64,000 bases of DNA from Heterotrichella gracilis (lineage: Eukaryota; Sar; Xanthophyceae; Tribonematales; Xanthonemataceae): the NCBI GenBank assembly GCA_032358255.1, contig JAULBX010019632.1:17594-81593 (forward strand), read 5' to 3'. Shown in pieces: positions 1-63,900 of this stretch (position 1 is its first letter; every line of letters starts with the position of its first letter). The translations under genes and the position numbers were made by a program. The notes beneath the pieces were generated by a model. That model saw nothing but the letters and a program-made list of their open reading frames with translations, did no database searches and was not told the origin of the DNA.

Positions 1-3000
1 AGGATGCATTGAGCCCAACAGGTATGTACCATAAGGTGGGAAGCGTAGCGCCTCACCTAGGTCTAGACCCCCCACTTCCCCCCCACTTTTGGACCCCCGA
101 AAAGCCTGCCTCAACCACCCAGGGTTGCTCATGGATGGACTCGATGGACACTGCACCTGCTGCATCTCACCTGTGCCTTGTTCCTGTTCTCCAGCATTGC
201 CTTGGCCTGCTTCTCACGCTCAAGGTCATCCACGCTCTTGCCAGTGGCGTCCTTGAACCTGAGTGGCACACACATGTTACACACAGGAAAAGAGCGCTGT
301 TGTGAATGGTATTTGAGCCGCCATGGTTGCTCATGCATGGAACATCCCCACACATGCACGATAGCGGAGGCGCAGGCACAAACCAGCCCTGCGCCTGTTG
401 AGTCCAAGTCACCAATGCCTCAGCCACCACCATGCTGTGCAGCATCAGCAGAAGCATCCCATGCCAGTGCTCCTACCTCTCCAGCTCCTTGTGCAGGCTG
501 TCCCTCTCTGCCCTGGCCGCATCCCTGTCACAGCTCACCGAGGCCACGGGCAGAGTTGCATGCAAGCCCTGCTGACCTGGCGCTATCGATACTAATGAAA
601 TGCGTTCAAACCACTCAATTCTCTTTCGATCTACCCCCTTGGTAATGAGGTGCGACATAGTAGCTACTTCCCTCACCTCTCCAGCTCCCTGTGCAGGCTG
701 TCCCTCTCTGCCCTGACCGCATCCCTGTCACAGCTCACCGAGGCCAGCTCAGTGCGCAACCGAGCCGAGTCCTCCACAGCGCTCTGCCTGCCCTGCTCAG
801 CAGCTGCGCAGTTGACCTGCAACAGGATGGGGGAAGCATGCTTGTGTGGTTCCTTTTGGATTGGAATTGCAGTCCTAATGATGAATTGTGATGGCACGAC
901 ACAAAGGGACAGGTAGTAATTCGCCAAGTAGCGGTAGCTTTTCATTTTGAAGTGCAAAATAATACAGCCTTGTGCTGCATTGTGTGGAAATGCCTGGATG
1001 TTTTAGGAGTGAACTGTAATGTTATTATTTGACCATAATAACATTACAGTTCACCTCAGCCGCACCTTGATGGCTTCCACCTGGTGCTCCAGCGCGGTGA
1101 TTGTACCCTTCATGTTTGCATTCTCCTCAGACCACCCGTTCTTCTCCCCCTGGAGCTTCACCAGGATCTCGTTCACCGCCTGGTTGTCCAATTGCAATTT
1201 TGAGTTGTACTCCTGCAACTGCGCGTTGTACTTCTGGGAGTGTTGGTGCAGCTCGCTCATGCTCTTCACCTACAAGTGGGATACACAGATACCATAAAAT
1301 AATGCTTTTCCCCTTGACCATTTGGGCGTGGGCCGGGGCTCGGGTTAGGCTCGGGTTGAAAGCCCATTTCCTTCAGATTGAATTTAGGACAATAAGGTGC
1401 ATCGATCATCCGAGAAACCCTAGCCCTCACAAGGGCCAAAACCCTAGCAGACCCTACCTGCTCCTGTGACTCCGTGAGCTGCCGCCTGAGCCCCTGCGTC
1501 TCCAACTCAACCCGCTGGATCTGCTGCTCCACGTATGTCAGCTGGCTTTGCGTGCTTGTGAGTGCGGCTTCCAGCTGCTGCTTGTCTGTCGCCAGAGCCT
1601 CTGCTTGACCTTTGGCAGTGCCCAGCGCAGCCTACACGTGTGGGGTTTATGGTGAGGATGAGGTTGATAGGGTGTCGTTACGCGTGCAACTCTTGAATTG
1701 ACTGGTGGGGCTGGCTCGGCCGGCAGCCTCCCTGCAGCAGGGTTAGGGTACTATGCAGGGTATTGGTTGCACATGTGATACCCTATACCCTTTGTTGGTG
1801 CGTAGCTCGCCCCTTCGACTTTATAGGTAGGGTGTTACTATGCAAGCTGACCCTGAGCCCTAAACCCTGTCTCCATGTCCAGCAACTTATTCATCTTTTG
1901 AGATAATTTTGAGATAAGTACCTCGGGAGAGTGCACCAGTTTGCCCATGTGAATTTTATATAACCTGGGCACCGCGCAACAGCGCACACTCACCTCCACC
2001 CCGCACAGCTTTGCCTCCACCTTGGAGAGCGCTTCGGCATTGTTGACTTGCTCGGTAGCCCTGTCCTGCTCCTCGCGCTCCAAGGCACCCTGGATGGTGT
2101 TCAGATCAAGCTCCAGCCTGCAAAACACAAGGTTGTGGCATTGCCTGGAAGGAAATAGCGCTGCCTTCTTAGCATATATGCCCTGCTGGGCACATATAAG
2201 TCAGTTGACGTGTTGACCCTTCTTTGGGGTTCGGTCGGAACCACGCTGCTGAATCTTCCTTCAAGGGTTTAGAGTAAAACTTGCGGGTCAGCTGCGATCA
2301 CTCTTAGGGTATCGTGCCTTTCTGTCAGGGTTAAGGGTATCCGTGTGGGTCCCCTTAGGGTACGGTACCTTTCTTTGAGGTTGAGCAGGAACCAGCCCGC
2401 CGCCCGCAGCCGCTTGAGCTGCACCACCAGTATGGTGTTCTTCACTTGGGGGGTCTCACGCTTCTTGAAACTCAGCTTGTGGTTCAGGCAGTCCTCAACA
2501 CTCCACCCCGTCTCATCCGCTACCTGCTCCCAGCTCAGTTCGTCTGGCGCCTGCTGTGTGGGAAACACATGGTTTATGGTATGGGGGTTATGGTATGGGC
2601 TGCTGGGCAGCAGGGGTGTGGGGTGAGCCTGAGACTGTTGTGTGCACGCATTGAACAAAAGTACCCTCGAGAGGGTTTCCAGCCGGCAAAACCCTAGCAG
2701 GACCCATGTCTTGGTCTTCTGCAACGCGTAGTGCATATGATACAGGGTGGCGATGGTGTGATGTTTCTATTGGCTACTGATTCCCCAGCTCAGCCCAATG
2801 GGTGCCGGTTGCGCATGGCAACACAGGTGAGGGGTTGGGCTGAAACTTGGTTTTGCTACCTGGGATACAGCCTAGCCCGAATATTCGTGTCCCGTATAGG
2901 TAGGACAGGTTCTCAAGGTGCCATGAGCTGAAGCATACCTGTGCTGCAACACTGTCTGGCGCCTCAACCGCAGTTGCCACCCTCTTGGGGTTGGCGTTGG

Positions 3001-4051: not shown

Positions 4052-7000
4052 ATGTCGGTGGTTAGCCAGGAGTTTAGCGACTGGCTGGAAGCCGGAGGCA
4101 TCACGTTCAACGGCATAGAAGCAGCGTTCGTTGGTGACCAGGGCTGGAGAGGGGTAATAGCCACTTGCGACCTCGAGCCTGGTGAGCATGTCACATGCAT
4201 GCATATTTGAATGGCAATTACTTTTCAATGCCATAGGAAGCAGTGCATGCACCTGCACCAGGGGTTCTAGCTGGGTACAGTTTTTCTCACTTTGCCCACA
4301 CTTTACTGAACCCCATCTCTCTCCGGGTGTATCTAATACGGCGGCAGCCTGCATCAAGCTCATGCCATGCCTAGACAACTGGCAGAGGCCATAGCTTAAT
4401 TCACACGCTCCAGCAGTCCCAACAGCCAGCTTGCTCAGCTGGAACCACCCACTCCCGTCTTGGAGTGGCATTCTTTACAGTTTGACAATACACGAGCCTG
4501 CACCCACGTGGTGCTGGAAACCCTAACCCTTTACCCTAATACTATCCGCCCACTGGCAAACCTTGACCCCGCCCACCCACAGGCACCTGCATCCTCAAGG
4601 TGCCCGAAGAGTTGCTTCTGAGCGAGCAATTCCAGCGGGACCCGGTGCTGGCCGCCGCCCTAACCTTACCAACCCTGACACCCTAAACCCGCCATCCAGA
4701 AACCCTAATCTCCCCCGCCCTGGAGCTTTAAACCTGCCAACCCAGAAACCCTGACCTTACACGCACAAATACCTGAAATCCGGCCCACCACAGGCACCTG
4801 CATCCTCAAGGTGCCTGAGGAGCTGCTACTAAGCGAGCGGTCTGCCCTGCGGGACCCGGTACTGGCCGCCGCCCTGCGCCGATACCAGGGCACACCCACG
4901 CCAGAGCAGGTGTGAACCACCACCACCACCATCGTGATCCACCACTACCATGACCCTCCATCACCACCACCACCACCCTACCACAATACTACATCTGGGG
5001 GCTTTTGATTGTGGCCGTTTTCAGCTTATAATCCGCAGCTGCTGCTCAAGAACGGCTTCCAGCGGCAACCGCAAACGCATGCATGAAGTTTGGCCTGCGC
5101 AAGGATTAGCATTGAGTGCATCAAATGCACGCATTTAGCAACAGCGAGTCCTGCGCCGGCTGCAGGTATTGGCGGCTCACCTGGTGCATGAGGTGAGCAA
5201 GGGCTGCCACTCCCGCTGGCACGCCTACCTTGCCCACCTGCCACGCACCTACTCCACACTGGCCACATGGACTGCACAGGAGGTGGAGGAGCTGCAGGTG
5301 GGCACACAAAACCCTAAAACCTTTAACGGTGAATTCTACACCCTAAACAGCAAACCTTAAACACCTAATAGTATCCCACACTGGCCACGTGGACGCCACA
5401 GGAGATGAAGGAGCTGCAGATGAGCACAAAAACCCTAAGCCCTTAATCATTAACCCTAAACGCTAAGTAGTTTTTTACACTGGCCACATGGATGCGACAG
5501 GAGGTGGGCGAGCTGCAGGTGAGCACAACAAACCCTATAAGCCTAACCTCTACCAATAAATCAGCAGCCCACACTGGGGTCTTGCAACCCTTGCGACCCT
5601 TGCAACCCTAATCATTGAATGTATTCTTGGACCCTTGTGATCCACCGCCCCAATTAATTCTGAACCCTAATCTCTAAACACTGGGAGAAGTCTCATATCG
5701 CATATCCCGAGGTACCACGCCACCGCCGCATGAACAACAATGGGCCACGGATGCCGTAAAATGGAACATACACGCCTAGCAGCTAATGTGTGCCCATGCA
5801 GGTTGAGTATGCGCAGCTTTCAGCACTAGCAGCGATTGAGGATGCCAAGCAGTCATGGCGCCAAGTGCGCCCTCTGCTCAATCAACTAGGTGTGTTCACC
5901 AGCCCATGACTGGGCACCTCTCGCATCACGCTGAGACAAAGTCCTGCATGGCTGTTGCACCCATCCACTACGGTATTCACCCTTTTTCATTGTACCATCT
6001 TAAAAGCGTTTTCTCGATACTTATTGATGTGCACGTGGTATGTGCGGCCGGTTGGAAAACAAATGTGTTGTGGCGCAGGCATGGAGGGCAAGTGGTGCAG
6101 CCTCAAGGCCTGGGTGTGGGCGCTGGCTACCCTGTCTTCCCGTACCATGTACCTCCCCTCCTGCACAGCAGGGGTGCTCACCCCTTTTGGTGACCTGCAC
6201 AACTATGAACAGCCGCCGCCGCTGTGCACTCCCAAGTTTGGTGAGCATGACCTGCATGTGCATGTGGGGAATGCCTGGAAAAGGACAGTTTATGCTGTGT
6301 ACGCCCAAGTTTGTCGAATTTCCCTGAACTTTGCGACGGGATAAAATGGGGAGCACGAAAGTGCGGTAAGCGGCACGACTGGTTGGCTGCCATCTGCCAC
6401 ACTGGAAACAGTGTCAGTTAAGCCTTGGTTCTAGGTCTTGGGTGAGGCATACCCAGACATGCTAACCTGGCTTCAAAGCTGGAAAGCACATACTTACTTA
6501 CTTAAGCTGTGTACACCCACGTTTGGTGAGCGCGACTTGCTTATTTGTGGATCATGACGGCTTGGTGTGCTGCCTCAGTATTGATTGCTCTGCCAGGTTG
6601 CAAAACGCCTGTGTACCTCCCCACCTGCAAAGTCCTACACGAATAAACCAATCAAATGACTTTCAAAATTGCCTGGTGAGGTGGTGCCACCCACTCCATT
6701 AACGCTGGTTGACCATCGTAACCGCCTTTTTTTGCTTTCACCCCATGGACTATCCAACTGAATTCGTGGGTCTGCAGGATTTCAGGCAGGCGGGGAGGAA
6801 TTGAGCGAGGATCAAATTTGCGGTGATGGCAGTTTTGACGAGGACACCCGATGTTACTGTCTGTATGCCCGGCGCAGGTGGGGACTGCAACGCCTGTATA
6901 TGCATGATGATGTTCTGTGCTCTGCGTTCACTACTTGCCAGTTTGAAGCATGCTGGTCTTGTATGTATGGTGGAGGCTGCGCAACCCCAGTTGAATGGAC

Positions 7001-8044: not shown

Positions 8045-8879
8045 GTGCGGATGCTGTCTCCTCTCCACAGTCACTGTGGCCAGATTCCTATAAGTTGCCA
8101 ACTTGAAAATAATGTTACATGGAGTCTGTTGAACTGACTAGTCACTAGAACGCTGTCAAGAGATTGCCAATAAATTACTGTGTGGTTGTCGAATTGGTAT
8201 AATAACTCCCAATCAATTACCCAGCAAACAGTGCAATAAAAAAGCAACAGTGTTTGTCCTTCTTGGTGTCACCCGATAAGCAAGGTATTTCTGCAACCGC
8301 ATAACCCTTATGAAGGGTATTCCTGCCACCGCAGGGCCCTCATGAAGGCTATCAGCATCGCAGAGGCTGCAACTGCAACAACTGGCTGATCACCACTTCT
8401 ACTGACGACCACACAGTGGCCCTGTGCCTCCTGAGGCATATTGTGACCATAGCTCAGGCCGTGTGCCTATCAATGTGCTGCTGCTTCCAGATTTCAACGT
8501 TGCTATGCGCCACAAGGTCGATCTGCGAGGTGAGCTGCTGTGTATGGTGCCAGGTATCAAGCTGCATGTTTTTTTATGTGTCAACGATCTTTCGTCATAC
8601 CATGGCATTCAGTTGTCATTTGAAGTGCTGCAATACTGATTTGTAAAGGCTATAACAATAATGTACTATCAAATTAATCGAAAAAGGCCTTTCTTATTGC
8701 TACATGCTGCCACCCAAGGCCACTCTCGCCAACGCAAATATATTTCAGCAATTCCATCCATGATTCACAAAACTGCCGGCTGTCTGTCAAAATGGTAATG
8801 GAATGTACTATGATATGTAATGATACCCTTGGAATGGGATTTCCATCCTACCAGCTGCATGGCACCTTTTCAAACCTCC
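8045..8879. other. 3' region between convergent SET and ciliary genes, with one exon-like stretch
   Basis: Most of this shows no coding signal. About 8417-8541 (+) has an acceptor-like ccacacag, an open stretch containing VPINVLLLPDFNVAMRHKVD and a gtgagc donor. It could be a late SET exon, since its phase would fit, or part of an unrecognised gene. No following exon was found. Confidence 0.3.
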
Positions 8880-9005
8880 CCGCTACAGGACCTAGGGTCC
8901 TGTTTCATCGGCGCACACGCAGGGTGGGCGTCGAGTAGTAGGACAGTGGAGACACCCTGTTGCGCATGCGCCCCTCTAGGGGGCACGTGGACTCGAAGAA
9001 CGTCT
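8880..9005 (-). repeat. Echo of the ciliary gene's terminal exon
   Basis: A diverged copy of 9100-9210 lies about 212 bp beyond the stop codon. It matches across the segment encoding GRMRNRVPPLSYYSTPTLRV. The copy is outside the reading frame's stop and presumably untranslated. Confidence 0.75.
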
Positions 9006-9101
9006 GATGAAAGAATCACAAAATGCCTGCTGCCAGCAAGTACCAGGTACAGCTTGTGATAACCTTCTCCACCCCCCCTGCTGCGGTGCAGGGCCCTGTT
9101 T

Positions 9102-11924
9102 TCAGCGGCGCACACGCAGGGTGGGCGTCGAGTAGTACGACAGGGGAGGCACCCTGTTGCGCATGCGCCCCTCAAGGGGCCGCGTGGACTCAAAAAAGGT
9201 CTGCGCGTTGTGCAGCCCGTTGTCCGACACGAAGGAGCTCTGGCCCGCACTGAAGAAGCTCATGAGGCCCTTCTTGCTGTCGATGGCGTGCTTGCCCACG
9301 TCCGCGTTCTGCGCAGCTGCCACTGGGTCCGGCCGGGTGCAGAGTGAGTTGGCCAATCCCTGCATGCAGGGATCATCAAACATTGTCAGCAGTGGTATTA
9401 GCCTTGTTATCGCTGTCAGTAACATGGATTGCAATGATCACCGGGCACGTCTGACTTTTGAAACTGTGCACGTCCATGTTTAATTTACGCCCAGCCGCAG
9501 CGCTGGGCCTGATTGGTGCACAGCAGGTTGGCCAACCTCTGCGCATATGCGCATGCTTTGATCCCATTGCCGCGGTCAATGTGAAATTCTGGTAGTATGC
9601 CGACAAGTAACTTTATTGGCTATCAATAGCCAATTACGCGCTGAGTAGCGGTTGTTATAGCACGCACTGACATATGACTCTGTGCAGTGCACACAACCTG
9701 TTTGAGGGCATTTCTAATAGTACCCATCGCAATGCAGGCTTCTCACCTGCGTGGTCACGATGCCGTGGCTGGGTGCAGACACCGGCGCAGCGTTGGCGGG
9801 GTGCTGGGGCTTGTGGGTGGTGCAGTTGGGCACCCGCTCCCGCGCATACTGGTCAAGGTCAAGCAGCAGCATGGCCTCCTTAGAATTGGTGCGCCCCACG
9901 CGGCCCTGTGCATGCTCCATGGCTCGGGTGTTGGCGCTGGACCGCTGGGAGGGCACAAATCCGGTGTAGCCTGGGGAGGAAATGAGGGAGGCCCTGGTTA
10001 CTGAGGGTTTTGTGTTTGAAAACAGTCCAATCCCCCCGCAGCCCTGGACGTTCTGGGTGACTCTGTTACTTTATTATTTTGTATGGTATTATGCGAACCA
10101 TACCTGGGATGTGGTGTGTGGTGGCTGTGGACCCCTGGTTTATGTCTTGCGTGGATGCCATCTTGGTGATCGCACGGGGGTCGGTGACATCCCCGCTCGG
10201 GCTTTGTGCCATTGATGCGGCTGCTTTGAAGTCCTGTAGGTACGATGTGGTGCCTTCCAGCCTAGGCCTGAATGCTACCCTGTCCGCCGGTGCCTGCAAG
10301 TATAACTCATTGACAGTGATGATCATTGTGACTGTTACAGTAGAATGCATATCATGTTCATTAAAATGAGACATTGCATAATTAATTCTTAATTTTCACT
10401 TTTCACTGTAATCCGCATGCGTGCACACCTGCTCCACGCCATGCGGCTTGCTCCTTGGTTTGTTGATATCCAGCTTGTGAAGCAAGGGCGAATCCCCCAC
10501 AAACATGGAACTGTACTGCGTGCGGTACTGCACCAGGGAAGCCTGGCTCCGCTGCTGCCGCTGTCCCTGTCCCTGCTGCTCCATTGCACCGCTGCACACC
10601 GTGTGACAAATGTGAGAAATAATCTATTGCATCGCGTATGCACGCGCAAAAAAAAAAGCATATGCGCAATATTGAGAAAATCTACAGCCTACATCTGACA
10701 GTGTCCTTGAACAGGCAAGGGCCGCACATGCATGCTCCCTGGGCCACTGACAGTGTGTGGCTGCATGCACCGTTGTGTTTGCATGCAATACCTACCTGCA
10801 CGTTGCCGTCGACTCCCTAGCCTGGCCACTGCATTGCCCCTCAACAGTTGCGATTTGACTGGGCTCTGGGAATTCTGTCCTGTACATGGATTGCCCAAGG
10901 AAGTGCTTGCGTTCCACTATGGAAGGGTTTGTGGGCCTGCGCGCAGTAGCCTCGCCATTGCTTTGGATCCTCTCGGGTGGCTTGAAATCTCTCTTGTACC
11001 TGTGTGCGCCAGACGGCCCGGGCTGAGATGTAGGCACACATCAGATGTGTTTCCTACCACCGACCGAGGCAAGATGATAGCATGTGGATACGGTATAGGC
11101 TCTGTTGCCGTTGAACCTATGCATGGATGACAATGACTTACAACAAAACACAAAAACTCCACTTACATGCTGCCAACAGGTGCTGTCTCTTCTGCTAGCT
11201 TTTCCACAACCTCTGGGTTCACATCCACGTTGCCTGCGTCACACAGCTTAGTTGTTCAGAAGAAAAGTTTGGGCCTACTGTCTGACACTCAGTGACAATA
11301 CTGTGACCCAGAGAATGGGTAAATATGTGATGTGCAACTGGTATATCATTGAAGGTATAGCGCTGTGTCTTCCTGCAAGAGGGTCCTGCAATTTTCGCAA
11401 GGGGTGGTGGGCACACACACCTGCGCGATGAGGGAGTTTGGCCAGTGGCATACTGGCCCAGCCTGGTATAAACCCTGTGTATCCTGCAACGCCCACGTCA
11501 TTCCTGTAGCTGATGCTGCTCTGGTTGCCAGCCTGTAGCGAGAGCCAATATAGTTCATTTTGGGGAGTAGATGGAACGATAATTCACCCGCATCTCCCAC
11601 ATGCCGTTCGACTGAGAACTTGGTGCGCCAACTGGTTCATAGCTATAGCACAAATGGCGAAGGCCTATCGCCCAGATGAGTTTTGGGGGAGAATGCAAGT
11701 TCTTGAACGTGCCGACAAGGCGGTGCATGCAAGAACACCCAGCGAAACGGCCAGCCCCTGTTACCTGTCGGCACCCTTTGTGGACATTGTCGTTGGAAAA
11801 CGTTGAACCTGCAGGCTGCCCGTACAGCTTCAGCACCATCTTGCCAGTTATTTTGGGGTCTGCTGTGGAGTACGTCCCGTGGTTGGTGTGATCCCTGGTG
11901 TCTGACCCAGCAACAATTTTGAAC
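9102..11924 (-). CDS. Ciliary/flagellar microtubule-associated protein with GYTGF(I/V)P motifs (5' exon not found)
   Basis: Eight minus-strand exons join in phase: 11924-11765, 11532-11421, 11233-11167, 10999-10796, 10591-10429, 10293-10104, 9970-9747 and 9359-9102 (TGA). About 459 aa are visible. The first exon needs a phase-2 upstream exon that I could not identify. Motifs in order: GYTGFIPGWASM, SMYKRDFKPPE, HFLGQSMYRTEFPE, LVQYRTQYSSMF, LEGTTSYLQDF and HHIPGYTGFVPSQRS. IPGYTGFVP-type motifs are known from FAM166/CIMIP2-like and other axonemal microtubule-inner proteins. Short YxxxF repeats are typical of microtubule-stabilising ciliary proteins. I infer a structural axonemal role; the exact orthologue is not assigned. 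No membrane segment is visible. Confidence 0.68.
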
Positions 11925-12209
11925 CTGGAACTTGAGATCAGCAACAGGCAAGGCTCCAGGCGTTAAGCTTCCTGCAAGTCAACTGTTCTAGAGACCCTCT
12001 TGTCAGGTTGAGCATGCAGCTCGACACCCCCGATATCGATACGAGCCTCAACCCCCTTGTCAAGGGCGGGAAAACTGCAAATGCATGCATATAAGGGGTC
12101 TTGCTGTTCTGACTGGTATGGCAACCCAGCGGGGCGTCTTGCGAGAGTAGCACTTGTTGTTGGGCTGGTTAGCAAGCGTGGCAACGCTTGACAATGCAAC
12201 TACTGTACT
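11925..12209. promoter_or_regulatory. Compact divergent promoter region, ciliary gene / NTAN1
   Basis: About 285 bp separate the first recognised ciliary exon (minus) from the NTAN1 ATG (plus). A TATAAG stands at about 12090, some 120 bp before the NTAN1 ATG, and is a plausible TATA box. The 5' exon of the ciliary gene may also lie here. Confidence 0.35.
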
Positions 12210-44200: not shown

Positions 44201-47200
44201 AAGGTTTTGGATGAGGGATTTCATGCAAAGTTGTCCTGTTGTTAGGTTGATAAAAGGGCTTGCACGTACCGCAGCGATGGTCACTTCAGATTGCTCAGGA
44301 TGCCTCAGCAGGGGAAGATCATGCCCCCTGCCAGAGGAATCCTTGGCAGCTGTGTGCTGCACCTGCACGCCCTCATGAGGAGCCCTTGCAAGCTCCGGAT
44401 CGTCCATTTTCAGGGTTCCAAGGTCAGCAGACCTCCCATTCCCCTAGCTAAATCTACGCTCTAGGGTTTAATTTGGGGGCAGCATGATTCCGATTTCGTA
44501 CCGCAGCAATGGTCACTTCTGACTGCTCAGGCGGCCTCAGCAGCGGCAGATCATGCCCCCTGCCAGAAGAGTCCTTGGCAGCTGTATGCTGCACCTGCAC
44601 GCCCTCGAGTTCCGGATCATCAAACTTCCAGTAGGCGGCCAGGTGCGGGTGGTTCTGCAGACCCGCGCTGGAGCGCATGTGGGTGATGATCTCCTCCTGC
44701 GGACAAGCAAGCGAGAAAGCGTCACAATCAAAAGCCAGAATTGATAGGACTATTATTATCTTAATACCCTTGCCAGGGCCCAATAAATTGGTAGTTTAGG
44801 TTGAAGGTGTATGATCCCAACGCTGCAGCCGCTTACGGCACTGGTGGAGCAAGCGGCTAAATTGGTCCTAGTTCATAGTGCTCACATAGTGCTCACATTC
44901 AACCGAATCCGATCGGAATCAAATTCTGAGCCTGGAGGCAATCACATTCTTTGCAGTGTGTTGCCACTGTGCTGGCCAGGTAACAGTGCGCCTGCAGCAT
45001 GCATGTAGGCGCAATGGTTTCTCCCCATACACAATGGCCTAAAACTGCAAGGAATTGTTATCGCGGCAGGCTCAGGATTCGATTCCGACCACACAGATAA
45101 CCATGGGGCACACATATTGCTTCAAAAAAGAAGTGACAACAGCGGCAGGTGATATCAGACAGGCCAATGGGCCTGCACCTGCAAGCCTAAATGCAAGACA
45201 CCCATCATCCTGATAATCTCCCTTGTCCTTTTTCCTAATGTCACGTGATCATGCCTACCTACGAGGCCGTAGCCTATAGTTTAGGTATATTCCAAAGCAA
45301 ATGGTCCAAGTTGGATGCACTACTCCGGAGGCAATGTCTGAGTTGGTCACTTGGGATCACATTTTTGCACCGAGACAGTCAAACACTTCATAGCTTGCAT
45401 GCGCATGTTGCTCGAAAGCACGCAGGATCAGGAAATTTCATAAAACTATCTGCAAGATTAACCAAGCTGTGAGCAACTGCTAGCGTATCTAGCGTACTCA
45501 GCATACGATATCAAGTATGTTAGAAGGTCCTCAGAGCATGGTTAGTCTTGCTGGTAGTTTTCTGAAATTACTTGGCTATAGGTTACAGCATAGACATATG
45601 TGTAACACACATGCAATGGAATTAATGTATTGTTCATGTCCTTGTATTTTTTGCAAAACGTTAGATCACAGTGGGGATGACTCGGGTCATTTTAAACCCT
45701 TTTTGCGATCGATGGCACTGACGGCAAAAGGTGGAATTTGTTTTCCATGCGTACCTCAAGTTCAATGCATGTGCATCAGAAATACAAGCTTTTCAATGTG
45801 GAGCGTGCAATCCTAAAGTCAGTTAAATTATTGGGGCTCACTTGGGGTCCCAAAGAAGTGCACAGGGGACAATAAGATGGGAAACAGATGGGAAGCAGAG
45901 GGATCATTGACAACACTGCGTTCTGACCCTCAGCCACCACACTCTAAACAAAACTGTTACACCCTGCACCCTAGACACAAAATTCCACCCCCAAACTCTA
46001 AAACTACCTAACTGCAGCAGCGCCCTTGCCGGAGCAAACAGCGTGTGGGTGGGAGGGTACAGAAACCCCCAGCTGTGCACAACCCTCACGCCCTCAGGGT
46101 TCTAGACCCTAAACCCTAAACCCCTAAACCCCGGAGGGCGTTGACTCGAAGTCTGGCATCCTGGGTGTGAGGCGAACTCCTGCCAGGTATGTTGGCTAAT
46201 TCTTGTGAGCGACGCCACTAGAGGAAGCCAGCAAACCTCGGCAGAGTCTGTCACACCCCCAGAATGACTGACTTGGAGTCAACGCCTTCAGGGTGAGGGT
46301 GATAGTACAGCTGTGGTGTTGTCACGTTCCGATTTTGTCCACCCTAAACCCTAACCCCACAGCTGCTCTCAGGATAAGCCCACATGTTGATCGGCTGCCT
46401 TCATATGTGCGCATTGCCGAGTCCATTGCAGGCTTAGTCAGAGCTTAAGGTTCCGTAGTGACCTCATCCATGAGCCCAGCTGTTTAGGGTATAGGGTTTA
46501 GGATGTAGGGCTTAAGTCGTTAGTTTCAGGGCGTATGGTCAAACATGCGTGCGCACCATGCTCCACATCCTAGCGTTTACAATACAGGATTTAGGGTTCA
46601 GGGCGTAGGTTCCTCCTACCTGTGTGCGCTCCACGCTCCACAGCCTGACCTCATCCATGAGGCCATAGTAGGCCTGGTTGCTGTCGGTGCAACCCCCGTA
46701 GCAGTCCTGCTCACCACCCAACATCAAGGCGCCACCTGGAGGGGGATGGATGGGGTGTCAAGAGGTGGGGTGTGTGGGTAAGGGTGCGGGTGGAGTGATG
46801 GGGTGGTGGTGGGGAGGGCAGCTGTGGCGAGTGGGGTAAGGATGGGGTAGAGGGGAAGGAAGGCAACAGCTAGGCAAAGTCATGCTGATGATATCCCTGT
46901 CGAACAAACGTTGCTGCCATTGCCCCTGCTCACCACCGAGCCTGAAGGCGCCGCCTAGGGGAGTGGGGTGGGGGCGCCGGTGTCACAGGAGCAGTAGTGC
47001 AAACATATCTTTTTAATTTTATTTACAATAAAAGAAATAACATGTAAATGTTATTTATATTAACCATTATCACTTGTTATCACTAGTTAATAGCGATAGT
47101 GCAAGGGGGTGATAGTACAAGGGGATGGGGGGGATGGTTGGGTGGTTGCTTCCTCATGTTAGTGCGTGGTGGGCACGATGTGTGATGTGGGAAGGCAGCA

Positions 47201-50200: not shown

Positions 50201-53200
50201 CTGTGTGGATTAAGGGTACAGGTGCTGATCCATGCCTCGAAGGTGAAACCATCACTATGATTTAGGTTTATACTCTGAACACTGGGATACCCCAAACCCT
50301 AAATACTAATCCTAGGGTGAGCTATGGCCTGCAGCACAAATAATGTGCTTCAATTGACATGCCGGTCTACAGTTTGGACCTTGGATTAGAGATTGGAATG
50401 AACGGGTTTAGGGTTTAGCGTTAGTGTACCTCTCACATGTGCAGCATAATGGTGACACAAATAGGGGGTGCTCATCCATGCCTTATAAGCAGGTGCCAAA
50501 TGCATCCATAATCTATATATGCCAACATGTTGCGCCGCGTCACATCTAGGGTTTAGGGTGCAGGTTTATACCTGTTTTCTAAATGACCTAGCCCTCCAAC
50601 TTGGGCTTGAAGCCCAATAATCAGCTCTTGGTGCACTCACATTTGGTGCATGGATGGGCACCTTTTGATAAGTGTGACACCCCGTGCTGCTGCTGCTTAT
50701 GGCCAAAAGATGTGCATGAACCCAAATGAATCATCAGATGCGGTTGATCATTGGAGACGTAGATGAGGTACAAGTGGGGCTGTGGAGGATCCCACAGGAT
50801 TACAAACCAAAAACTCCATCCCCAAGCAACAGGGTTTAGGGTTTGGTTTGAATCCTGGGTGCTCGCCCAAAATCACACTTTACCTCATCTACTGCTCGTA
50901 TGATCCGCACCATCGAGGTATATGATGCCTATTCTTGGCCATACCCATCAGGCGCACGTGGTGTCACACCTATCAAGGAGTGCTCCAAGCCCCGAAGGTG
51001 AGCGCACCAAAAGGGTGCAGGGTTTAGTATGTAGGGTTTAGGGTCGGCTAGCTCACCTGGGTGACACCTGTCCAAGATGCTGACCCATGCCTCGGAGGTG
51101 GGCACTTCAATAGGGTTTAGGGTTTAGGGTTTAAAGTTCAGGGTTTAGGGTCGGCCAGCTCACCTGGGTGACACCAACCCGAGGTGCTGATCCATGTCTC
51201 AAAGGCGAGCGCACCAATAGGGTTTAGGTTTAAGGATCGGCTACCTCACCTAGGTGGCACTCACTAGGGTTTAGGGTCTGGGGTTTAGGGTTTAGGGACA
51301 GTTACTCACCTGGGTGGCACCTGTCGGAGGTACTGATCCATGCCTCAAAGGTGAGCGCGTCACTTGGAAAACCCTGCAGGGGAGGAACAATGTGGGTCTG
51401 GGGACATGTACCTCGGCACCAGGAGTAACACCACATAGACTTGGCAGCGTGTCGGGGGTGGATGGGTGGGTGGGGGGGGTCATGCCTCTGCATAATCAAT
51501 TGCCAAATGGCACACCTCACTTTGAAACAGCATCACATTGAGAATTGATTAGTGCCAAGCAAGGTTGACAAGCCAAAGCAAGTGGGCCAGAGCTTCTCAT
51601 GAGGCAAGGGACCGGGTGCATCAGCATGGTTGGGTGCAGAGCCCTCCCCGTTTTCAGCACTGCCCGCGCATCCCTTGGTGCTTCAGTTAAGGTTTAGGGT
51701 TCAGGTTGCTCCCCGCCTCCTGTACCCATCTTGACCCTCCTTGATGACCACCGCATGAAACATGAGCAAAAATGCTTAATAAGCCCTTCTAGACTTATAC
51801 CTTGTAGTGTTCAGGTTTCAGGATCTAAAACCTATGCCACCCTCTACACCCACAAGTATGACAATGCAGCTTAAATTCCAGACGGGCTGCCAGGGGACCC
51901 TTCCCAAAGGGCAGCCCTGGCAGCCCGTCTTGAAGTCCACTTGCAATGCCATACTTGTGGATGTAGAGGGTGGCGTAGGGATTCTGCCCACATCTTCAAC
52001 ACTCATCAGCACTGCCGTCGTTTCAGCCTAGATCCATGCATCCTTGACCACACGGATCCTGGGCCCCGGGATCTCAAGATATGGGCAGAATTCTATGACA
52101 CCCACTACATTCACAAGTATGGCGATACAGCTGGGTTTCAGCACCGGCAATCCAAGTTGCTTAGTTGTACTCTTTGGAAGGTTGGTATCAGATGCACCGG
52201 TGCATCGTATACCTACCGTTCAATGAGTAAGACGAAGCAACTTGGCTACCTGGGGGTGAAACCCAGCTGTGTGGCCATCTTAGTGAGTCTATCAACAACT
52301 AAGATACCGAGGCGTTTCTCCCAGGCACTGTCAGTGGCAATTCTCCTACAAAATACGCTGATGTCTTGTCAACATTTCTTCAGGGGTGGACAGCGAAACT
52401 CCATCACCAACCTTTTCCTAAGGGTCAAATTGTTTAAACGCTGTTGTCTAGTTTATTTGAACCATAGCAGCAAGACTGTTGCACTCTTCCCCACCTCAGT
52501 TAAGCAGTCCTCAGCTTTGCAAGCAGGCTCGAGCCTGGAAAGATAGTCTTGGACCACTAGCTAGGGTTTTACAGGCAGGCTCCATGGTTCACACTCACTC
52601 CCCATTTACTGCACTCACCATAAACCCCTTGATGACCACCGCATGATCTTGGAACAGGAGTGCGTGCCCCGCTCCGCCAGGCATGGACACATTGCCGTCG
52701 AGCACTGCACACCAAACAATCGTATTAAACCCTAAATTAGGGTCTGTGTCACAGGGGTCAATGAGGGATTGGGGCATAAAATGTAGGGATTTTCGAGGTC
52801 TTGAATGAAGGTTCAGGTGCGTGCATGTGCATGTGCCGCCAGTGCCGCAGCATCGCAGATTACGTGGGTAATAGGGTTTGTGAATAGGGTTGTAGACATT
52901 GAGGTCTAGGATTGCAATGCACGTTGGTCTTTGGCAAATTGGTCATTGGCCAATGCAGGTTAGGGTTGCCTTAGGGTTTGCGGGTATACGTAGGGTTTCA
53001 TTGACGCGGGTTCAGGGCTCTTTCGGGTTTGTAGCTACAACAGCGTACATGGACTTATGGTGCGACCGCTGTCATGCAGACCTTGTGGAAAACCGCGCAT
53101 ACCAAACAGTAGTGACACCCAGTGCCACTGCCAGTGCCCAAAAGGACAGATTCCGGTTTGAAATACAGCTGCAAGAAAGTTGTCCATACCGCCAATAAAG

Positions 53201-53935: not shown

Positions 53936-55340
53936 GACGCTGTCTAGTCGAGGAACGCCCTCAGGAGTTTGAAGACCACGGACCTTGAACCTCCGAGGCA
54001 AGAGGATGGGGGCCGACGGAGGCTCCAGCAGCAGCAAACTTTGAAGACTCTTTGAACCTCTGAGGTTCACCGCTCACAGTCTGAAATTGCGAGGATACCG
54101 AGCCCTCAGGCTCAACCTGCACACTGTGACTTGCCGCAAGCTCAGCTAACGCTTGGAAGCGGGTTGAGCTCAGCTGAAGAGAGTTTAGGCCAGGACATGG
54201 CCTTGGACAGGTGCTGAAAGGCCCCGAAAGCGAGTGACAGGGCGTTCTTGGCAGTACCAAATTGCCCCTAAAACTATTGCAGCCGCTGTGCAGGCCCTAA
54301 CGCGTCGCAAAATAGGTCCAGACAAGGCTGGGAAACGTCAGGAACTGAAAGCGAGCAAAGCGAAGGCCCGTGACACTGCGTGGCTTGAACTTCGCTGCAA
54401 GGCTCTGTCTTGAGTGAAGGTGCCCATGCAAGCGACAGGGGATCAGGACGAGAGACGAGGCTGAAAATGCATGCTGGATCAGGCCTTGAAAGTGCTTTGC
54501 ATGCAGCTGTTGGCCATAATGGAGCCTCCACATGCAAGTGCGCAAACCAAAAGCAAGTTGTGTGCCCTGCCCGGCTCGTGCCGAGCCACCACTCTTGTCG
54601 AGAGGAAACTGGGCTGGCAGGTGACACCCAGGGTGACCTTGGCACCTCCAAGCTGGTGCACGTGCCATGTGGCATGACATTGTGCCAGCTGGACCAATCA
54701 GGTGACAGTTGAACATGTGGGGGTGGATCACGGTAATTTGGTGGGGGTTTGCAGCATCCCAGGGACAAAGGTCCAGCTCAGTACGTGTAAGGATTGACAA
54801 TGTTCACCTGCAACCCCCACATGGCAGTGTGTTTGTGTGGTCACTAGACCCTGTAGTACGGCTACTGGGTTCCCCCCCTGTTACCAAGTGGTACTACCCT
54901 ATCATGCCGAAAGAGAGGCGCAGTAGCTGCGTCAGACAAAAAGCAATTCTGTTCGACTGCGGCATGCCATGACGACCCGTTGGCAATATTGCGTGAAATA
55001 CGCGCAACTATGGGTTGGCTGAATTCAAAATCTGATCATCAGTTTCTTTCAGTACCTAGTCTAGTGCCTGAAACTCAATGTGTCTGTAAATGCCAGTACT
55101 CCTCTGAATCGCACTGCAGGTTGCGCTGGCGTTGACCAGTCACAGCGGCCACCACGTGAGACGTCCCCTCGCATGGCCCCCCTCCCCCCCTCGCACGTCA
55201 CAGGGACTCCATCTTAATTCAACTGCTGTGGGCATCCAATGATGGAAATCAAGCAGCCAGTCAGGGCAATCACCACTGCACCGGGCCCATGCACTTCCCC
55301 CCCTGCCGCGTCACAACCCAAATACTAAGCCCATGCAGCG
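53936..55340. other. Intergenic: LamG gene promoter / reductase-like gene 3' side
   Basis: There is no supported exon. A CTTTGAACCTC-type direct repeat lies at about 53975-54070. Open frames at 54274-54800 have no recognisable domain or splice structure. Confidence 0.4.
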
Positions 55341-58300
55341 TCACAGCCCTTTCATCAGCTCCTGAGTGCACCCCGCCCGTTGCAGCCAGTGCACATGGAG
55401 CCGCGTCATCTCCCGAGACAGGAAGAAGCCATTGCGCCACTGGAACTCCTGGATTGCCATCTCCATACTGGGGACAGCTTCGGGGATGGAGAGCGAGTAG
55501 GCAACCAGGGCATCCACCACTGCATCGATGCCCATGTAATGGTGTACGAGTGCCTGCTGGGGTGTGCTGGCCGCCAGTGAAGTTTGTAGGGTTTCTGGTA
55601 GGGTTTCCACCCCTGCACTGGGGTCCATGTGGCGCTGGGGTGCGCCGGCTGGGGTTTGTAGGGTTTCTGCCAGGTACCTCTGGCCGAGAGGGAGCAGCTC
55701 TTCCACCAGTGCTTGGATGTCTGGCCTGTGCCTTGTGGCCACCTCACCCACCTGTCATGATACACGTGCGGGGTTTACTTAGTTAGTTAGGTGGTCAGGT
55801 AGTTACATGCATTCCAGCAATCCAGTAAGGCTGGGTTGGGTACCCTGCGCTACGCAACATATATGTGAGGTGCCATGGTGTGCTCAGTCCTGTCTTAGTG
55901 CGCAGTATATGCATGTGACCCAACCTCTCATGAAACACCGTCCAAAGCAGCCCTTCCATCCAGGACTCGGTGTCGTGCCAGTGTCTTGTGACGCTATCTC
56001 GCGCGCTCCCCAGCACCCATACCCATTTCAAGATTTCCAAATTGGGCTACGTCCATCAAAAATAAATTCCTAAATCCAATTTAAATCCAATTTAAACTGA
56101 AATTTGTTGATGTTACAGTGGCCTGTACCCCGCCACACCCCACCCCCACCACCTCACCCCCACCACCACCCACCTTCTTGCCCCCTAGCGCAGCGCTCAT
56201 CATCCAGAAGATGCATGCCCACAGTAGCTTGGTGAGCATGAGGCTGTCATAATCCCCCTTGCTCCCCGCCACCCGACACGCCACCCCCCCGCGCTGCAGC
56301 ACCCCTGCCAGGTCATCAGCCCACCTGCATATGCATGACTTAACTGACAAGGAAGCTCATCAGAAAAAAGGCAATGCGCGTGGGCCCCAGCTGATTATGG
56401 CATCCCAGCAGATTTTGGGGTTTTGTTGCACATCCTACACCCTTCCTGCCCGCAACCTGGCATGTCACCCCTCCACGCTGCAGTACCCCTGCCAGGTCAC
56501 CAGCTCATCTGGACACGTAAACACACATGAGCTCCCTGTCCCATAGGCCCCCGTACGCACATGCAACCTGCTCTAGTCCAACTCTAGTCCAACATGCGAG
56601 CAGTCTGCAGTATGGTGGGCTGCCAGCAATTGGCTGCCAGCTCGTGCGGCACACCTTCCAACCCGAGTGCCATATGCAAATGTAGAATAAATAAAATAAT
56701 ATTGCCTCCATGTTGTGAAGAACCCTAGCCAAGGGTATACCCGCACCTGCCGCATGCGACCGTGCCGCCCCCATCCCTCCCCCTGCCCCCTTCGTCAGCG
56801 CTCAAGTACACCAGACCCTGGGTGTTGCCATACACCACAAAAAACCTAGCCAAAGGTTTACACACACCTGCCAAAGGCAACCGTGCCGCCCCCATCCCTC
56901 ACCTCCCTCCTCCTCAGCGCTCATATACAGCAGACCCTAGATGTTGCCATACATCACAATAACCCTAGTCAAGGGTGTGCACCCACCTGCCGCAAGCAAC
57001 CGTGCCGCCCCCATCCCTCACTCTCCCGCCCTCCTCAGCGCTCATATATAAAAGCCCCTGGGTGTTGTCCTGTAGACCCTCGGCCACCAGCAGCGGCACC
57101 AGCATCCCGTTCTGGAGGAATACCAGGTCGGACCTCCTTGCAGGGGGGATGGCGGTGATGATGGCGGGGAGGGCGTTGGCGGTGGTACACAGATAGATGG
57201 GGCCCTGGGGGGTGTGTGGTGTGTGAGGGGGGGGTGAGTAGGGGTGGTTGGGTGGTTATACACAGGTATATGAGGCCAGTGGTGGTGGTGGTGGTGGCGG
57301 GTGGTGAGTAAGGGGTGTTGGTTGTATACACAGGTACTTAGGGCCGGTGGGTGGTGGGTGGGGTGGTGGGTGGGTGGGTGGAAGGGTGCGTGGAAATGAG
57401 AGCGGTGGTGCATAGGTAGATGGGGCCCTGGGGTGGTGGGTGGTGGGTGGTGTGTGAGGGTGTGGTGTGGTGTGGGGTTTAGGGGAGGAACATGGGGAGG
57501 GGTCACTTGCCAGGGGACTAAGGGGTGATGGTGCAAAGGTATGTGGGGAGCTAGGGAGGGAATGGCGGGAGGGTTGTTTGGCATGCAAATCACGGTGCGC
57601 ACATAGATACTGTACCGGTATACATATGCGGGGTGCGCATATGGCAAGGGTGGGTCAGAGGGGCGGGGGTGGAGGGGCGGGGGTGCAATGTCAACGTGTC
57701 AGCGGGAAACCGGGTGAGGGGAGGTGTGCACTTGAAAGGTGTGTGGTGTGTGGGGGGGACCGTGAGTGGAGCTGACGACAAGGAATGGGTCCCTGCTTAG
57801 CACCTGGCACACCAGTTACTCCCCCACCTGTTGGTCGCTTGGTATCGTCTGCCCTCGTCCTATGACCAGCGGCTTGGTGGGGCACATGCCGGCGAGGGCA
57901 GAGCCCACCCTGCCGGGGCCAACCACTGTCCGGGAAAAGCTCAGCGGCGTAGGCATGGCCAACTAGGGTTTAGGGTTTAGGTGGTGCAAGGGGTCCTCCT
58001 CCTGGCTTTCGAACACGGTGGGGAGGTCGCTCACCCTCCCAACAGCCCTCCCAGACACTTTTCTCTTTACCTTCTTCGACCTGCCCCTGGTGGGACACAC
58101 AACCGCAGGATCAGCCTGTGTAAGGTTTAGGGTTTAGGGTTTTCGGTGGGACACACAACTACAGGAACAAGCTGTTTAGGGTTTAGGGTTTATGATGATA
58201 TGCACAACCACAGGATCATGCTGTGTAGGATTTAGGGTTTATGTTTCCGGTGGGATACACAACCACAGGATCGATCATGCCGATTCGTACAACCCGCCTA

Positions 58301-60902: not shown

Positions 60903-63900
60903 TTAGGCCCTTGCATCCCGCAACGACTGAATGCTGAGGGTCACCCAATGTGCTGCCCCTTGGGATGTGGAGGTTGCAATCTCATCCAGGTGCACACTTT
61001 GGTGGAACTCATCCAATCGGTGCACAACCAACCACAGGTACTCCTGCAACGAGAGAGGGGTTTAATGTGGGTGAGGGTGGACGGGTAATTTCTTTGAACC
61101 TGTATCTCAAATCCTTGCAAATGGCGACATAGTAGGGTCAGGGTTGCAATCTCCAGTGGATTCTGGCATGCTCTGTAGAAACTCATGCAGGGTGTGCATG
61201 CGTGGGTCAGAGTACTGGTGGTGGTGGCGGTGGGCTGGGGCTTACGGCTAGGGGCTAGGAGCTAGGGGTTAGACTCACCATCCGAGCCTGCATGGCCATG
61301 TCGGGCACCTTAAGCGACAGAGCTTCCCTTATCCGCACCACCTCCACATGCTGTACCCTACACCAAAACCCTAGTCACACACTATTGCCCTTGCAGAGCC
61401 CTCTCCACAGTCCCTACAGATCCCATTCACCTGTACCCTCCCCAAAGCCTTACTGGGGATGCACCATTCAAACCTCCATGAGCATGTCCGGAACCTTGAG
61501 CGCCAGGGCCTGCCGCAGTTGCCGCACCACAATACCCTAACCAAACCCTACCCAAAACCCTAATGGCCACGCACCATTCGAAGCTCCATGGGCATGTCCG
61601 GCACCTTGAGCGCCAGGGCCTCTCTCAGCTGCCGCACCACCTCCACCCGCTTGTTCAACAACATGGTGTGCTGTACAAAGGTGTCGTAGTCAGGGGTAAG
61701 CACTGGAGGCAGCAGCGGGGCGGCCAGGGGGGCGGCGAGGGAGAGGGTGGGAGCGGAGGGGAGGGCGGGGGAGGGGCCTGATGCGGCGGAGGGGCGGTGG
61801 ATGGCAGGTGGTAGGGGAAGTGTCCCTGCAGGGGAAGGGCAGGGTTGGGTGTGCAGGGAGGGCAGTGACTTGTACGCACTATGCAGGGCCCTTCTGTGCA
61901 GGGGCTGTGGTTCTCAAGTTTTATGGCAAACTATGCAGCAATTGCAGCAGATGGTGCAATTTGTGGCATGCGCTGTGCAGGGGACGGGCAGCACAGCAGT
62001 GTCAACCCCAACTGCACCAGTAGAAACCCAAACCCTAGGGGTCCCACACCGGGCATCTGCCAGCAAGGGCGGTGTGGTAACAACTGACAACCCGAAACCC
62101 TAGCCCACAACCCGAAACATCAAATGCCCTACCAGCAGCTCTTGGTAGTAAAGGGCACACCAGCCGCCAACTTGCTCATCAAACCCTAAACCCTAAATCA
62201 AAACCCTATTGCCCCCACCTGTCAGCAGCGGCGTGGTGGTGTAGGGCGAGCTAGGCCCAACCGCCACCAGCTGGCCCCCACCCACCCCCTTGGCCTTGCG
62301 GGGCTTGGTAGCCGGGGGGGCCGGAGGGTGTGTGGGGCTCGCCAACCCCGGCGCACCCTGCGGCCGGGGGCCATCCCCAGGGGGCTGGATTACTCGATTC
62401 CGTGCTGCGGCGGTCACTGCGCGGTTGCGTGCCTCTGCAGTGAGGCGCTTGACGTTGGCAACAATGGCCGCCATTTCCGGGGTGGTGGCGGTGGAGGGGG
62501 TGCGGTCCAGCGCCGGGGGTTGGGGTTCAGAGGCTGCGGGGGTGGCGCCGTTGCCAGCTGGCGGCGCCTCCTTTGCCTGACAAGGACAAAGAACAGGTTA
62601 ATCAACACATATATATCCTCACCCATTATGTACGTACAATATCCTAATTTAATACTTGCATGTTTTCAATTTTGCATTCATGACTTTGGTATCATCCGTG
62701 GCCAATGTGCTATTTGCAAGATCCACCCTCGTCCAGCGTCCACAGTTACTGACCAAGGCGCCAAATAAAGGAACAGGCAACAGGTTGCAATAGGGATGCA
62801 CATATGCAATGACCAGGCGAAGGACACAATCAGTAAAGGCAAATGTCTGTGTGAATGTAGGGTTAAGGGTCTGCTGATTTTTACCCCCTGCCTCACCTGT
62901 CCGCTCATGCTGGGCACAGTGGCGTCTGGATGCCCCACCACACCGGACTGGGTATCCACCTCGCCGCTCGCCCCCGCCCCCTCCAGCCCCTCCCCATCCA
63001 CATCCATGGCCGCCACCCCCGCTGTCACCTCCCCGTTCACTTCCTCAGGGGAGGCGCTGCTGAGCTCGGTGGGCTGGACACCACTCCCCGCACCCCCCGC
63101 TTCCTCCGACCCCCCTGGCAGGGCCACAGGGGCATCAGAAGGTGGCTCTCCCCTGGCTTGCTTGGCCTCCGGGGCGGTGTCCGGTTCGCCCTCAGCCGGG
63201 CGCTTGGCGGCCCCCTCCCCTGCGCTCGTTCCTTCCTTATCCTTCCCTTCGTGGATGCTGGGGATCGCCGCTTGGCCGTCGCCATCCCCAGGAAATGCTG
63301 AAGCTGCTCCCTCCCCGTCTACACCGTTGTTTCCATTACCACCCCTGGACGCGGCATCTGCCAGCGCAGCGTTGGCAACCCTCGCCAGCTGTTCCAGTCC
63401 ATTGTGCACCTCGTGTTCCTCCCCGTTTCCCGCCTTCCCATCCTCCCCTGCCACACCCTCCCCGGCCACTGGGGCTCCCATATGACCACTCAGCACCCCC
63501 TGCATGTACTGCGCCAGCCCGTTCTCCACCGAGGGCTTCCCCACTGTCCTACTTCCCCCTAGCCTGATCCTGACCTTGGTGGCGGGGGGGGCCTGCGCCC
63601 CCCCAGGCGCCGCCCCTGCCTCGCCACCTGGCGCCTCAGCCACAGGCGGAACCACGCCCTCGGGCGTGAAGCTCGGCGGCCCCGGCTGAGGGTACTGAGC
63701 CGTCGGCGCTGAGTTGAGCGCGCTGAGTTGAGTCGGGGGCGCCGAGTTGAGCGTGGTGAGCGTGCCCGCAGCTTCCTCCATGAGATTGCTCTGCTGCTGC
63801 TGGAGCTGTGCGGGGGTGGGTGAGGGTTGGGTGGGTGCTGGCGGCTGGGACCCGGGTGGGGAGGAGGCGTTGGGCCACCAGGGGGGCGGGGGGGTGGGCT

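Follow-up and report, generated by a model that had tools for sequence, protein, structure and literature searches.

The window analysed here, a stretch of 64,000 nucleotides of the Heterotrichella gracilis genome (C197:17594-81593 in an assembly of 68.5 Mb and 903 contigs), contains eight gene models. According to a Pfam scan, these comprise a giant minus-strand laminin-G/pentaxin gene (approximately 17-53 kb, with a DUF4215 match scoring just below the cut-off), an NTAN1 gene (N_Asn_amidohyd), a mitochondrial carrier gene (Mito_carr) and five models with no match. A preliminary description of the window had reported partial copies of exon ends beside more than fifteen exons in at least six of the eight genes; we refer to such copies as echoes and to the copied exon as the parent. 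Comparison of the window with itself using the Basic Local Alignment Search Tool (BLAST) yielded 84 repeat pairs, 75 direct and nine inverted, many of which were 60-500 bp apart. A hand count found echoes, in the same orientation as the parent, at approximately 18 exons in six of the eight gene models, in agreement with the description. The carrier and NTAN1 genes, said to be free of echoes, indeed had none at their exon ends in this comparison; the carrier gene contains 130/194-bp direct repeats confined to an intron (14537-14824). In the larger sample described below, approximately a quarter of the exons have, in the adjoining intron, a nearby decaying copy of one of their ends that includes the splice signal.

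The sample analyzed comprised the window and 25 further stretches of ten kb each from its assembly, i.e. 314 kb from one genome. A guanine-cytosine (GC) content above 0.45 was required of the stretches because the assembly also holds bacterial-looking contigs, and the lower-GC stretches L002, L011 and L014 were excluded. Contigs C1, C100 and C180 have GC contents of 0.35-0.37, and long laminin-G open frames occur on C1, C111, C331, C442 and C647; the assembly appears to include bacterial contigs. Exons were called with a home-made exon finder that used codon usage trained on the sample and donor and acceptor matrices, without transcript or protein support, and that visibly misplaced one donor (41942). 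It called 326 exons with scores of at least 14, and the 232 internal exons with scores of at least 18 were regarded as confident. In an initial scan of 20 other stretches, local direct repeats of at least 40 bp were present in 14 of the 17 with a GC content above 0.45, and inverted repeats were found in L015 only.

Self-comparison of the 314 kb yielded 161 local direct repeat pairs, of which 94 had one copy on a called exon, 53 had neither copy on an exon and 14 had a predicted exon under both copies (the last group was excluded from the count of sides). Among the 94 pairs, 56 were copies of an exon 3΄ end lying downstream and 29 were copies of an exon 5΄ end lying upstream, compared with one 3΄-end copy upstream and no 5΄-end copy downstream, i.e. 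a ratio of 85:1 in the expected direction; three further pairs spanned both ends and five were internal. We then compared the 111 non-overlapping pairs with 500 random shifts along each stretch. The observed numbers were 42 for 3΄-downstream (null mean 7.3, maximum 15), 24 for 5΄-upstream (7.5, maximum 15), one for 3΄-upstream (3.2) and zero for 5΄-downstream (3.2), with two pairs covering both ends (1.8), four internal (9.0), nine with both copies on exons (13.6) and 29 off any called exon (65.5), some of these 29 being echoes of missed exons or pairs of echoes. These results confirmed the echoes as a genuine feature that is common across the genome stretches sampled and linked to exons beyond chance. 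Random placement relative to exon borders, named beforehand in the preliminary description as evidence against such a linkage, was found neither in the shift test nor in the simulation presented below.

Echoes were present at 61 of the 232 confident internal exons (15 of 37 in the window). Taking the nearest echo of each exon end, we obtained 69 distinct ends, 44 of them 3΄ ends and 25 of them 5΄ ends (43 and 25 when an exact segmental copy was left out), and the preliminary statement that the 3΄ side prevails thus holds in the larger sample. At least one echoed exon was found in 15 of the 25 sources that have a confident internal exon, the window included. By this strict count L004, L005, L006, L010, L013, L017, L020, L021, L025 and L026 had none, although pairs were present at lower-scoring or terminal exons in L010, L017, L020 and L021; L023 has no confident internal exon. 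The spread was uneven, from 0 of 18 exons in L005 to 8 of 13 in L028. The proposal of a genome-wide process is therefore supported insofar as echoes recur across the sampled contigs, but not in the sense that every stretch has them. Predicted introns with echoes were longer (median 389 bp, n = 68) than those without (283 bp, n = 255), as expected if echoes lengthen introns, which had also been proposed.

To characterize the copies, we examined the 19 pairs with at least 88% identity, which we regard as young. In 18 of these, the copy comprised 32-105 nt of the exon end and 2-26 nt of intron past the splice site; the exception, a contiguous tandem unit, included 84 nt of intron. Intron similarity was assessed by local alignment beyond position +12 (3΄ type) or before position -30 (5΄ type) and compared with the 95% range of mismatched pairs. 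It remained at the level of mismatched pairs in 16 of the 19 young pairs (11 of 13 3΄ and 5 of 6 5΄), and since introns of that age would be expected to be approximately 80% identical, the missing homology is not due to decay. Values above the mismatched range were found for 16 of 26 3΄ and 5 of 13 5΄ pairs in the 80-88% band, and for 5 of 16 and 4 of 10 pairs, respectively, below 80%, indicating that a contiguous class also exists; because identity was taken over the whole match, pairs that retain intron homology drop into these lower bands. The median intron part was 6 nt at donors (n = 13) and 10.5 nt at acceptors (n = 6) in the young pairs, and 19.5 nt (n = 56) and 29 nt (n = 29), respectively, in all pairs.

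We also simulated duplication events placed uniformly over the donor, followed by neutral decay of the echo and both introns and by the same search, in which 1367 of 1430 events were detected. The simulated median intron shares were 0.45, 0.50 and 0.64 for identities of at least 88%, 80-88% and 60-80%, respectively, whereas the observed shares of the 3΄ pairs were 0.12 (13 pairs, P = 1.5e-5), 0.34 (27 pairs, P = 0.01) and 0.51 (16 pairs, P = 0.007). When each exon end was represented by a single echo, the values were 0.13 (10 pairs, P = 0.0004), 0.31 (21 pairs, P = 0.003) and 0.55 (12 pairs, P = 0.06). Young copies thus clearly end near the splice signal beyond what ageing produces, and the excess in old pairs is weak. 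The preliminary description had an exon end and adjoining intron being copied together; the linkage to exons and the common orientation stand, but the young copies mostly have no long intron part.

Differences between exons and echoes amounted to 158/1628, 125/1631 and 312/1622 at the first, second and third codon positions, i.e. 0.097, 0.077 and 0.192 (85 pairs, among which an exon may be represented by more than one echo and the segmental copy is included). The first two positions fit neutral decay of the echo at approximately 0.09 per site, and the excess of approximately 0.1 at the third fits synonymous drift of the parent, a pattern that speaks against old echoes having been kept by selection. 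The splice dinucleotides were retained in 45 of 56 3΄ echoes (GT) and 24 of 29 5΄ echoes (AG), as compared with a neutral expectation of approximately 0.83 at the same rate, and selection for echo sites is therefore not needed. Accordingly, the GT donor is mostly kept, as had been observed, but the role of decoy donors that had been attributed to it receives no support. An AG at the upstream edge was found in 4 of the 42 listed 3΄ echoes, about the chance level, and hence 3΄ echoes as a class are not spare exons. This number and the decay without coding constraint speak against mutually exclusive or tandemly duplicated whole exons.

The nearest echo lay within 260 bp for 66 of the 69 exon ends. 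The distances clustered near 105 and 195 bp (Silverman test, P = 0.002 for 66 values, with 315, 435 and 1336 bp dropped; P = 0.006 for n = 65 without the segmental copy), and in 38 independent pairs, with a microsatellite and the second segmental copy dropped, P was 0.096; the bimodality is suggestive. When the pairs were divided at 150 bp, a limit picked after seeing the data, the short-step class more often contained telomere-like DNA (22 of 30) than the long-step class (15 of 36, P = 0.013). Intron homology (score above 19, bits-like) was found in 18 of 29 short-step and 7 of 36 long-step pairs. The long-step pairs had a median of 69.5 nt of exon and 11 nt of intron, as compared with 40 and 31.5 nt in the short-step pairs. 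The short-step class is thus often a contiguous tandem duplication with telomere-like DNA. Plain contiguous tandem duplication was rejected as an account of all echoes, since long-step pairs are mostly without intron homology, and fits this subclass.

The DNA between the parent and the echo is often unrelated to that past the echo. The gap was shorter than 20 nt at 17 of the 69 nearest echoes, and the other 52 spacers were searched for telomere-like 7-mers. These were present in 23 of 52 spacers and 11 of 52 flanks of equal length beyond the echo (only in the spacer in 14 cases, only in the flank in two, P = 0.004; 22 of 51 and 11 of 51, 13 to two, P = 0.007 without the second segmental copy), compared with 18% of matched random noncoding segments. 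The fraction of bases covered by these 7-mers was 7.3% in spacers, 2.8% in the 150 nt that follow the echoes, 2.1% in the remaining noncoding DNA and 0.4% in exons. In 15 of 52 spacers, the motif lay within approximately 24 nt of the intron-side edge of the parent (6% in random windows). With respect to the sense strand, the motifs in 5΄-echo spacers were C-rich in eight cases, mixed in one and G-rich in none, and those of 3΄ echoes were divided seven to seven; to judge from the sequence, the C-rich repeats ahead of acceptors look like a ready-made branch point and pyrimidine tract. The parents and echoes of the window are listed in Table 1.

Table 1. Parent exons and their echoes in the window
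Feature	Position	Strand	Remarks
Parent exon, coiled-coil-like gene A	677..816	-	Exon finder; 3΄ end copied
3΄ echo of 677-816	475..546	-	97.2% identical; GT kept; 128-bp spacer unrelated
Parent exon, gene B	4794..4909	+	Borders read from sequence; finder 4811-4909
5΄ echo of 4794-4909	4568..4661	+	Upstream; acceptor AG kept
Parent exon, gene B	5166..5297	+	Exon finder
First 3΄ echo of 5166-5297	5376..5427	+	GT lost (ATGAGC), then CCCTAA-type repeats
Second 3΄ echo of 5166-5297	5477..5540	+	GT kept
Parent exon, gene C	9114..9359	-	Borders as predicted by finder
3΄ echo of 9114-9359	8864..9006	-	84.7% identical
Parent exon, laminin-G gene	20102..20195	-	Frame reads IEDGYVCTRTSPSRCYR; borders read from sequence
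5΄ echo of 20102-20195	20357..20432	-	89.5% identical; acceptor kept
Parent exon, laminin-G gene	23948..24047	-	Self-BLAST, exon finder
3΄ echo field of 23948-24047	21504..23907 (23808-23907, 22928-23003, 22493-22587, 21504-21603)	-	Within larger tandem units
Parent exon, laminin-G gene	24679..24898	-	Exon finder
Two 3΄ echoes of 24679-24898	24194..24615 (24496-24615, 24194-24296)	-	Self-BLAST
Parent exon, laminin-G gene	25166..25413	-	Pfam Laminin_G_3 match 25197-25397
5΄ echo of 25166-25413	25498..25612	-	90.4% identical; acceptor kept
Parent exon, laminin-G gene	33436..33599	-	Exon finder
5΄ echo of 33436-33599	33708..33803	-	77% identical
Parent exon, laminin-G gene	35602..35766	-	Identical second copy 38337-38501
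Three 3΄ echoes of 35602-35766	35151..35542 (35501-35542, 35323-35428, 35151-35250)	-	Self-BLAST
Parent exon, laminin-G gene	40409..40553	-	Exon finder
5΄ echo of 40409-40553	40766..40843	-	77% identical
Parent exon, laminin-G gene	41880..42072	-	Donor near 41880 read from sequence; finder 41942
Three 3΄ echoes of 41880-42072	41300..41773 (41676-41773, 41493-41590, 41300-41400)	-	Step of approximately 190 bp
Parent exon, laminin-G gene	43849..44058	-	Exon finder
Three 3΄ echoes of 43849-44058	43135..43762	-	Contiguous tandem units of approximately 250 bp
Parent exon, laminin-G gene	44502..44696	-	Donor GTACGA
3΄ echo of 44502-44696	44265..44374	-	90.9% identical; donor GTACGT outscores that of parent
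3΄ echo array of exon near 51310-51375	50952..51232	-	Exon by eye, not called by finder; TTTAGGG-type repeats between
Parent exon, gene D	56174..56324	-	Exon finder
5΄ echo of 56174-56324	56440..56511	-	Self-BLAST
Parent exon, gene D, both ends echoed	56987..57204	-	Exon finder
Two 3΄ echoes of 56987-57204	56718..56946	-	Contiguous tandem unit of 120 bp; CCCTA repeats
5΄ echo of 56987-57204	57402..57467	-	Self-BLAST
Parent exon, gene E	61575..61825	-	Exon finder
Two 3΄ echoes of 61575-61825	61273..61530 (61435-61530, 61273-61347)	-	CCCTAA repeats between

The window also contains other repeats. Inverted repeat arms of approximately 255 bp at 22104-22863 lie among the echoes of exon 23948-24047. 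Two segments, 35242-37977 and 37977-40712, form a 2,735-bp tandem copy that is 100% identical, holds three laminin-G exons with their echoes and either arose by duplication very recently or is an artefact of assembly. A 195-bp dispersed repeat (6310-6504 and 31491-31685, 94% identical) has an ACTT-type tail and, in the copy at 31491-31685, a GGTTCGAATCC box upstream; from this motif, we take it to be similar to a tRNA-derived short interspersed element. A large intron at 25878-30100 has higher-order repeats of approximately 450 and 1,200 bp, some of them inverted, that are not tied to an exon. A hairpin-like element (51875-52123) has an inverted repeat at 51948-51996 and 52076-52123, and a hexamer microsatellite (19183-19388) runs into a gap of 100 N.

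We propose, with a probability of roughly 0.45, that the echoes are scars left when staggered breaks were repaired with duplication and filler, the side being set by splicing and selection. A staggered break, i.e. two nicks tens of bases apart, would occur at or beside an exon, and both sides would be filled in and rejoined with filler, often telomere-like, giving the order copy-filler-copy. Provided that the splice signal was duplicated in full, the copy still attached to the rest of the exon would be spliced normally, and the other copy would end up in the intron and decay neutrally, so that 3΄-end echoes would be forced downstream and 5΄-end echoes upstream. Events within exons would be removed by selection, and later contiguous tandem expansion of units of approximately 100-250 bp could produce the multi-copy fields. 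The 3΄ excess may arise because the first donor is the right one after a donor duplication and the first acceptor is the wrong one after an acceptor duplication.

The geometry, the neutral decay, the unrelated spacers of young pairs and the enrichment of telomere-like DNA in spacers are observed directly and support this reading; the tight borders of young copies at splice signals are likewise observed. In the non-contiguous class, direct duplicates flank unrelated DNA and their side is fixed as splicing predicts, which is what staggered breaks should leave. From these patterns we infer the breaks, the fill-in, and the participation of telomerase and selection.

Several observations weigh against the staggered-break reading. 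An echo on the old border should score at least as high as its parent, but echo donors were weaker on average in 11 pairs sharing at most 5 intron nt (1.3 versus 2.3) and in 15 pairs sharing 6-14 intron nt (1.8 versus 2.9), with exceptions such as 44265 and 35501, although as a test of which copy is the original this comparison is biased towards poor echo donors by the mismatch positions. The acceptor context of the 10 of 29 5΄ echoes that share at most 12 intron nt scored 0.03, between the background (-1.57) and genuine acceptors (1.54). No telomere-like motif was present in 29 of the 52 spacers, and the motif was hardly richer near the spacer-side edge of the echo (8 of 52) than near the far edge (5 of 52). 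The spacer is a putative insert, not a proven one; whole-genome DNA searches with window positions 43000-48000 and 55300-58300 and with L028 5700-9900 found no paralogous empty site, the matches being to the query itself, to one inverted segment within the same region and otherwise of at most 73 bp. Moreover, if breaks were random, events confined to introns should be more frequent and the intron shares of young copies larger than observed, and an additional exon-linked cause is needed that the proposal does not supply.

The borders of young copies at splice signals might be set by the positions of nucleosomes over exons or by RNA-DNA hybrids, and a nucleosome scale behind the spacings is a guess. 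A bolder formulation would have a chromatin- or splicing-bounded process copy approximately 30-105 nt of the exon end and little beyond the splice signal, in steps of approximately 195 bp (a nucleosome repeat) or 105 bp (half of one), often with telomere-like filler, and serve as a main engine of intron growth; we regard this as a tentative possibility against which the odds lie.

One alternative is ordinary random tandem duplication with selection and ageing, in which exons are not special, duplications across a splice site are tolerated and the intron parts decay twice as fast, leaving mostly exon ends to be recognised. It accounts for the side rule with no process specific to exons, contiguous units do exist (intron homology persists in 18 of 29 short-step pairs), and the intron share in the oldest band is near the simulated one (0.55 versus 0.64, n = 12, P = 0.06, one echo per end). 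However, the share is far smaller than simulated in young pairs (0.12 versus 0.45) and also in the 80-88% band (0.34 versus 0.50), and pairs off called exons are fewer than under shifts (29 versus 65.5), which makes it rather unlikely. Templated insertion by polymerase theta or template switching, in which a break in the intron is mended by copying the neighbouring exon end, so that the echo would have been inserted and the spacer would be original intron sequence, would agree with the unrelated DNA on both sides of young echoes, with their proximity (66 of 69 within 260 bp) and with echo splice contexts that are on average weaker than those of the parents. It should also have produced landings on the opposite side, but these number only 1 of 57 3΄-end and 0 of 29 5΄-end copies, and the enrichment of telomere-like DNA is in the spacer, not past the echo; we consider it unlikely.

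Borders might instead be set by RNA-linked copying from pre-mRNA, splicing intermediates or RNA-DNA hybrids with ends at splice sites. This improbable alternative would suit the small intron parts of the young pairs (6 and 10.5 nt), but the medians of all pairs (19.5 and 29 nt) show that the borders are not sharp, bases past the donor were copied, hence free 5΄ exons were not the template, and no exon-exon junctions were noticed in the displayed copies, at which no search was aimed. Decoys or alternative exons maintained by selection would account for the mostly kept GT and AG and for echo splice contexts far above background, yet retention equals neutral decay, AG at the upstream edge is at about chance and two displayed echoes (a 3΄ echo in L028 and a 5΄ echo in L022) have in-frame stops, so that such a function is very improbable. 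An introner-like mobile element leaving long target duplications is hardly credible: it would give a spacer between direct duplicates and clustered net insert lengths, but the spacers form no shared family in the 314-kb sample (weak matches elsewhere for 7 of 46 spacers and 7 of 46 control flanks, two of the seven in each list being the segmental copy), and the target duplications of introners are 3-9 bp (PMC9860276). An assembly artefact, which may explain the identical 2,735-bp copy, can practically be dismissed for the echoes, which differ by 3-31% from their parents and recur over many contigs.

Intron growth is usually credited to transposons, whereas local, directional scars are found here on approximately a quarter of the sampled exons. 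Because the age of a scar can be estimated from codon positions, the mechanism of insertion, its age and the tolerance of splicing can be read in one genome. The excess of 3΄ over 5΄ echoes (44 versus 25) provides a natural test of how the spliceosome chooses between duplicate donors or acceptors, and the echoes furnish spare splice sites in bulk.

No description of exon-end echoes was found by title or abstract in the open literature, many subscription journals lying outside this search. Small tandem duplications have reportedly been attributed to fill-in of staggered breaks in rice and Arabidopsis, and we know of no preference of fill-in tandem duplications for exon ends. Gao and Lynch (2009) are said to have described internal gene duplications that create introns, in which the duplicated exon pieces carry splice sites; those segments reportedly create exons or introns, whereas only exon ends are copied here, and they decay.

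In mouse cells, fill-in by CST-Pol alpha at overhangs of 43 bp leads to tandem duplications, which resemble the echoes in being local, direct, in the same orientation, adjacent and tens of bp long; the duplications described there are contiguous, whereas the echoes surround 50-150 bp of filler (PMC8355091). Telomeric repeats have been inserted at staggered breaks with flanking duplication at 3 of 66 loci in the horse (PMC7215372), and such duplication accompanies 6 of 130 interstitial telomeric insertions in rodents and 4 of 25 in primates (PMC2246262). These insertions at staggered breaks resemble the echoes in that telomere-like DNA lies between duplicated flanks, but duplication is a minority outcome there (PMC7215372, PMC2246262), and in the present case the duplicated flanks are exon ends. 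Neointrons of Daphnia, attributed to staggered breaks with repeats of 4-12 bp, likewise repeat the terminal bases of the adjacent exon across an insert and show staggered breaks lengthening introns; there a new intron arises, whereas the copies reported here are at least 40 bp long and sit within existing introns (PMC4202315). Introners, which are known in algae, are likewise small inserts that add intron DNA, but they occur as repeated families, have short target duplications and give rise to new introns, unlike the echoes (PMC9860276). The echoes are best read as a repair-type local duplication in a novel form.

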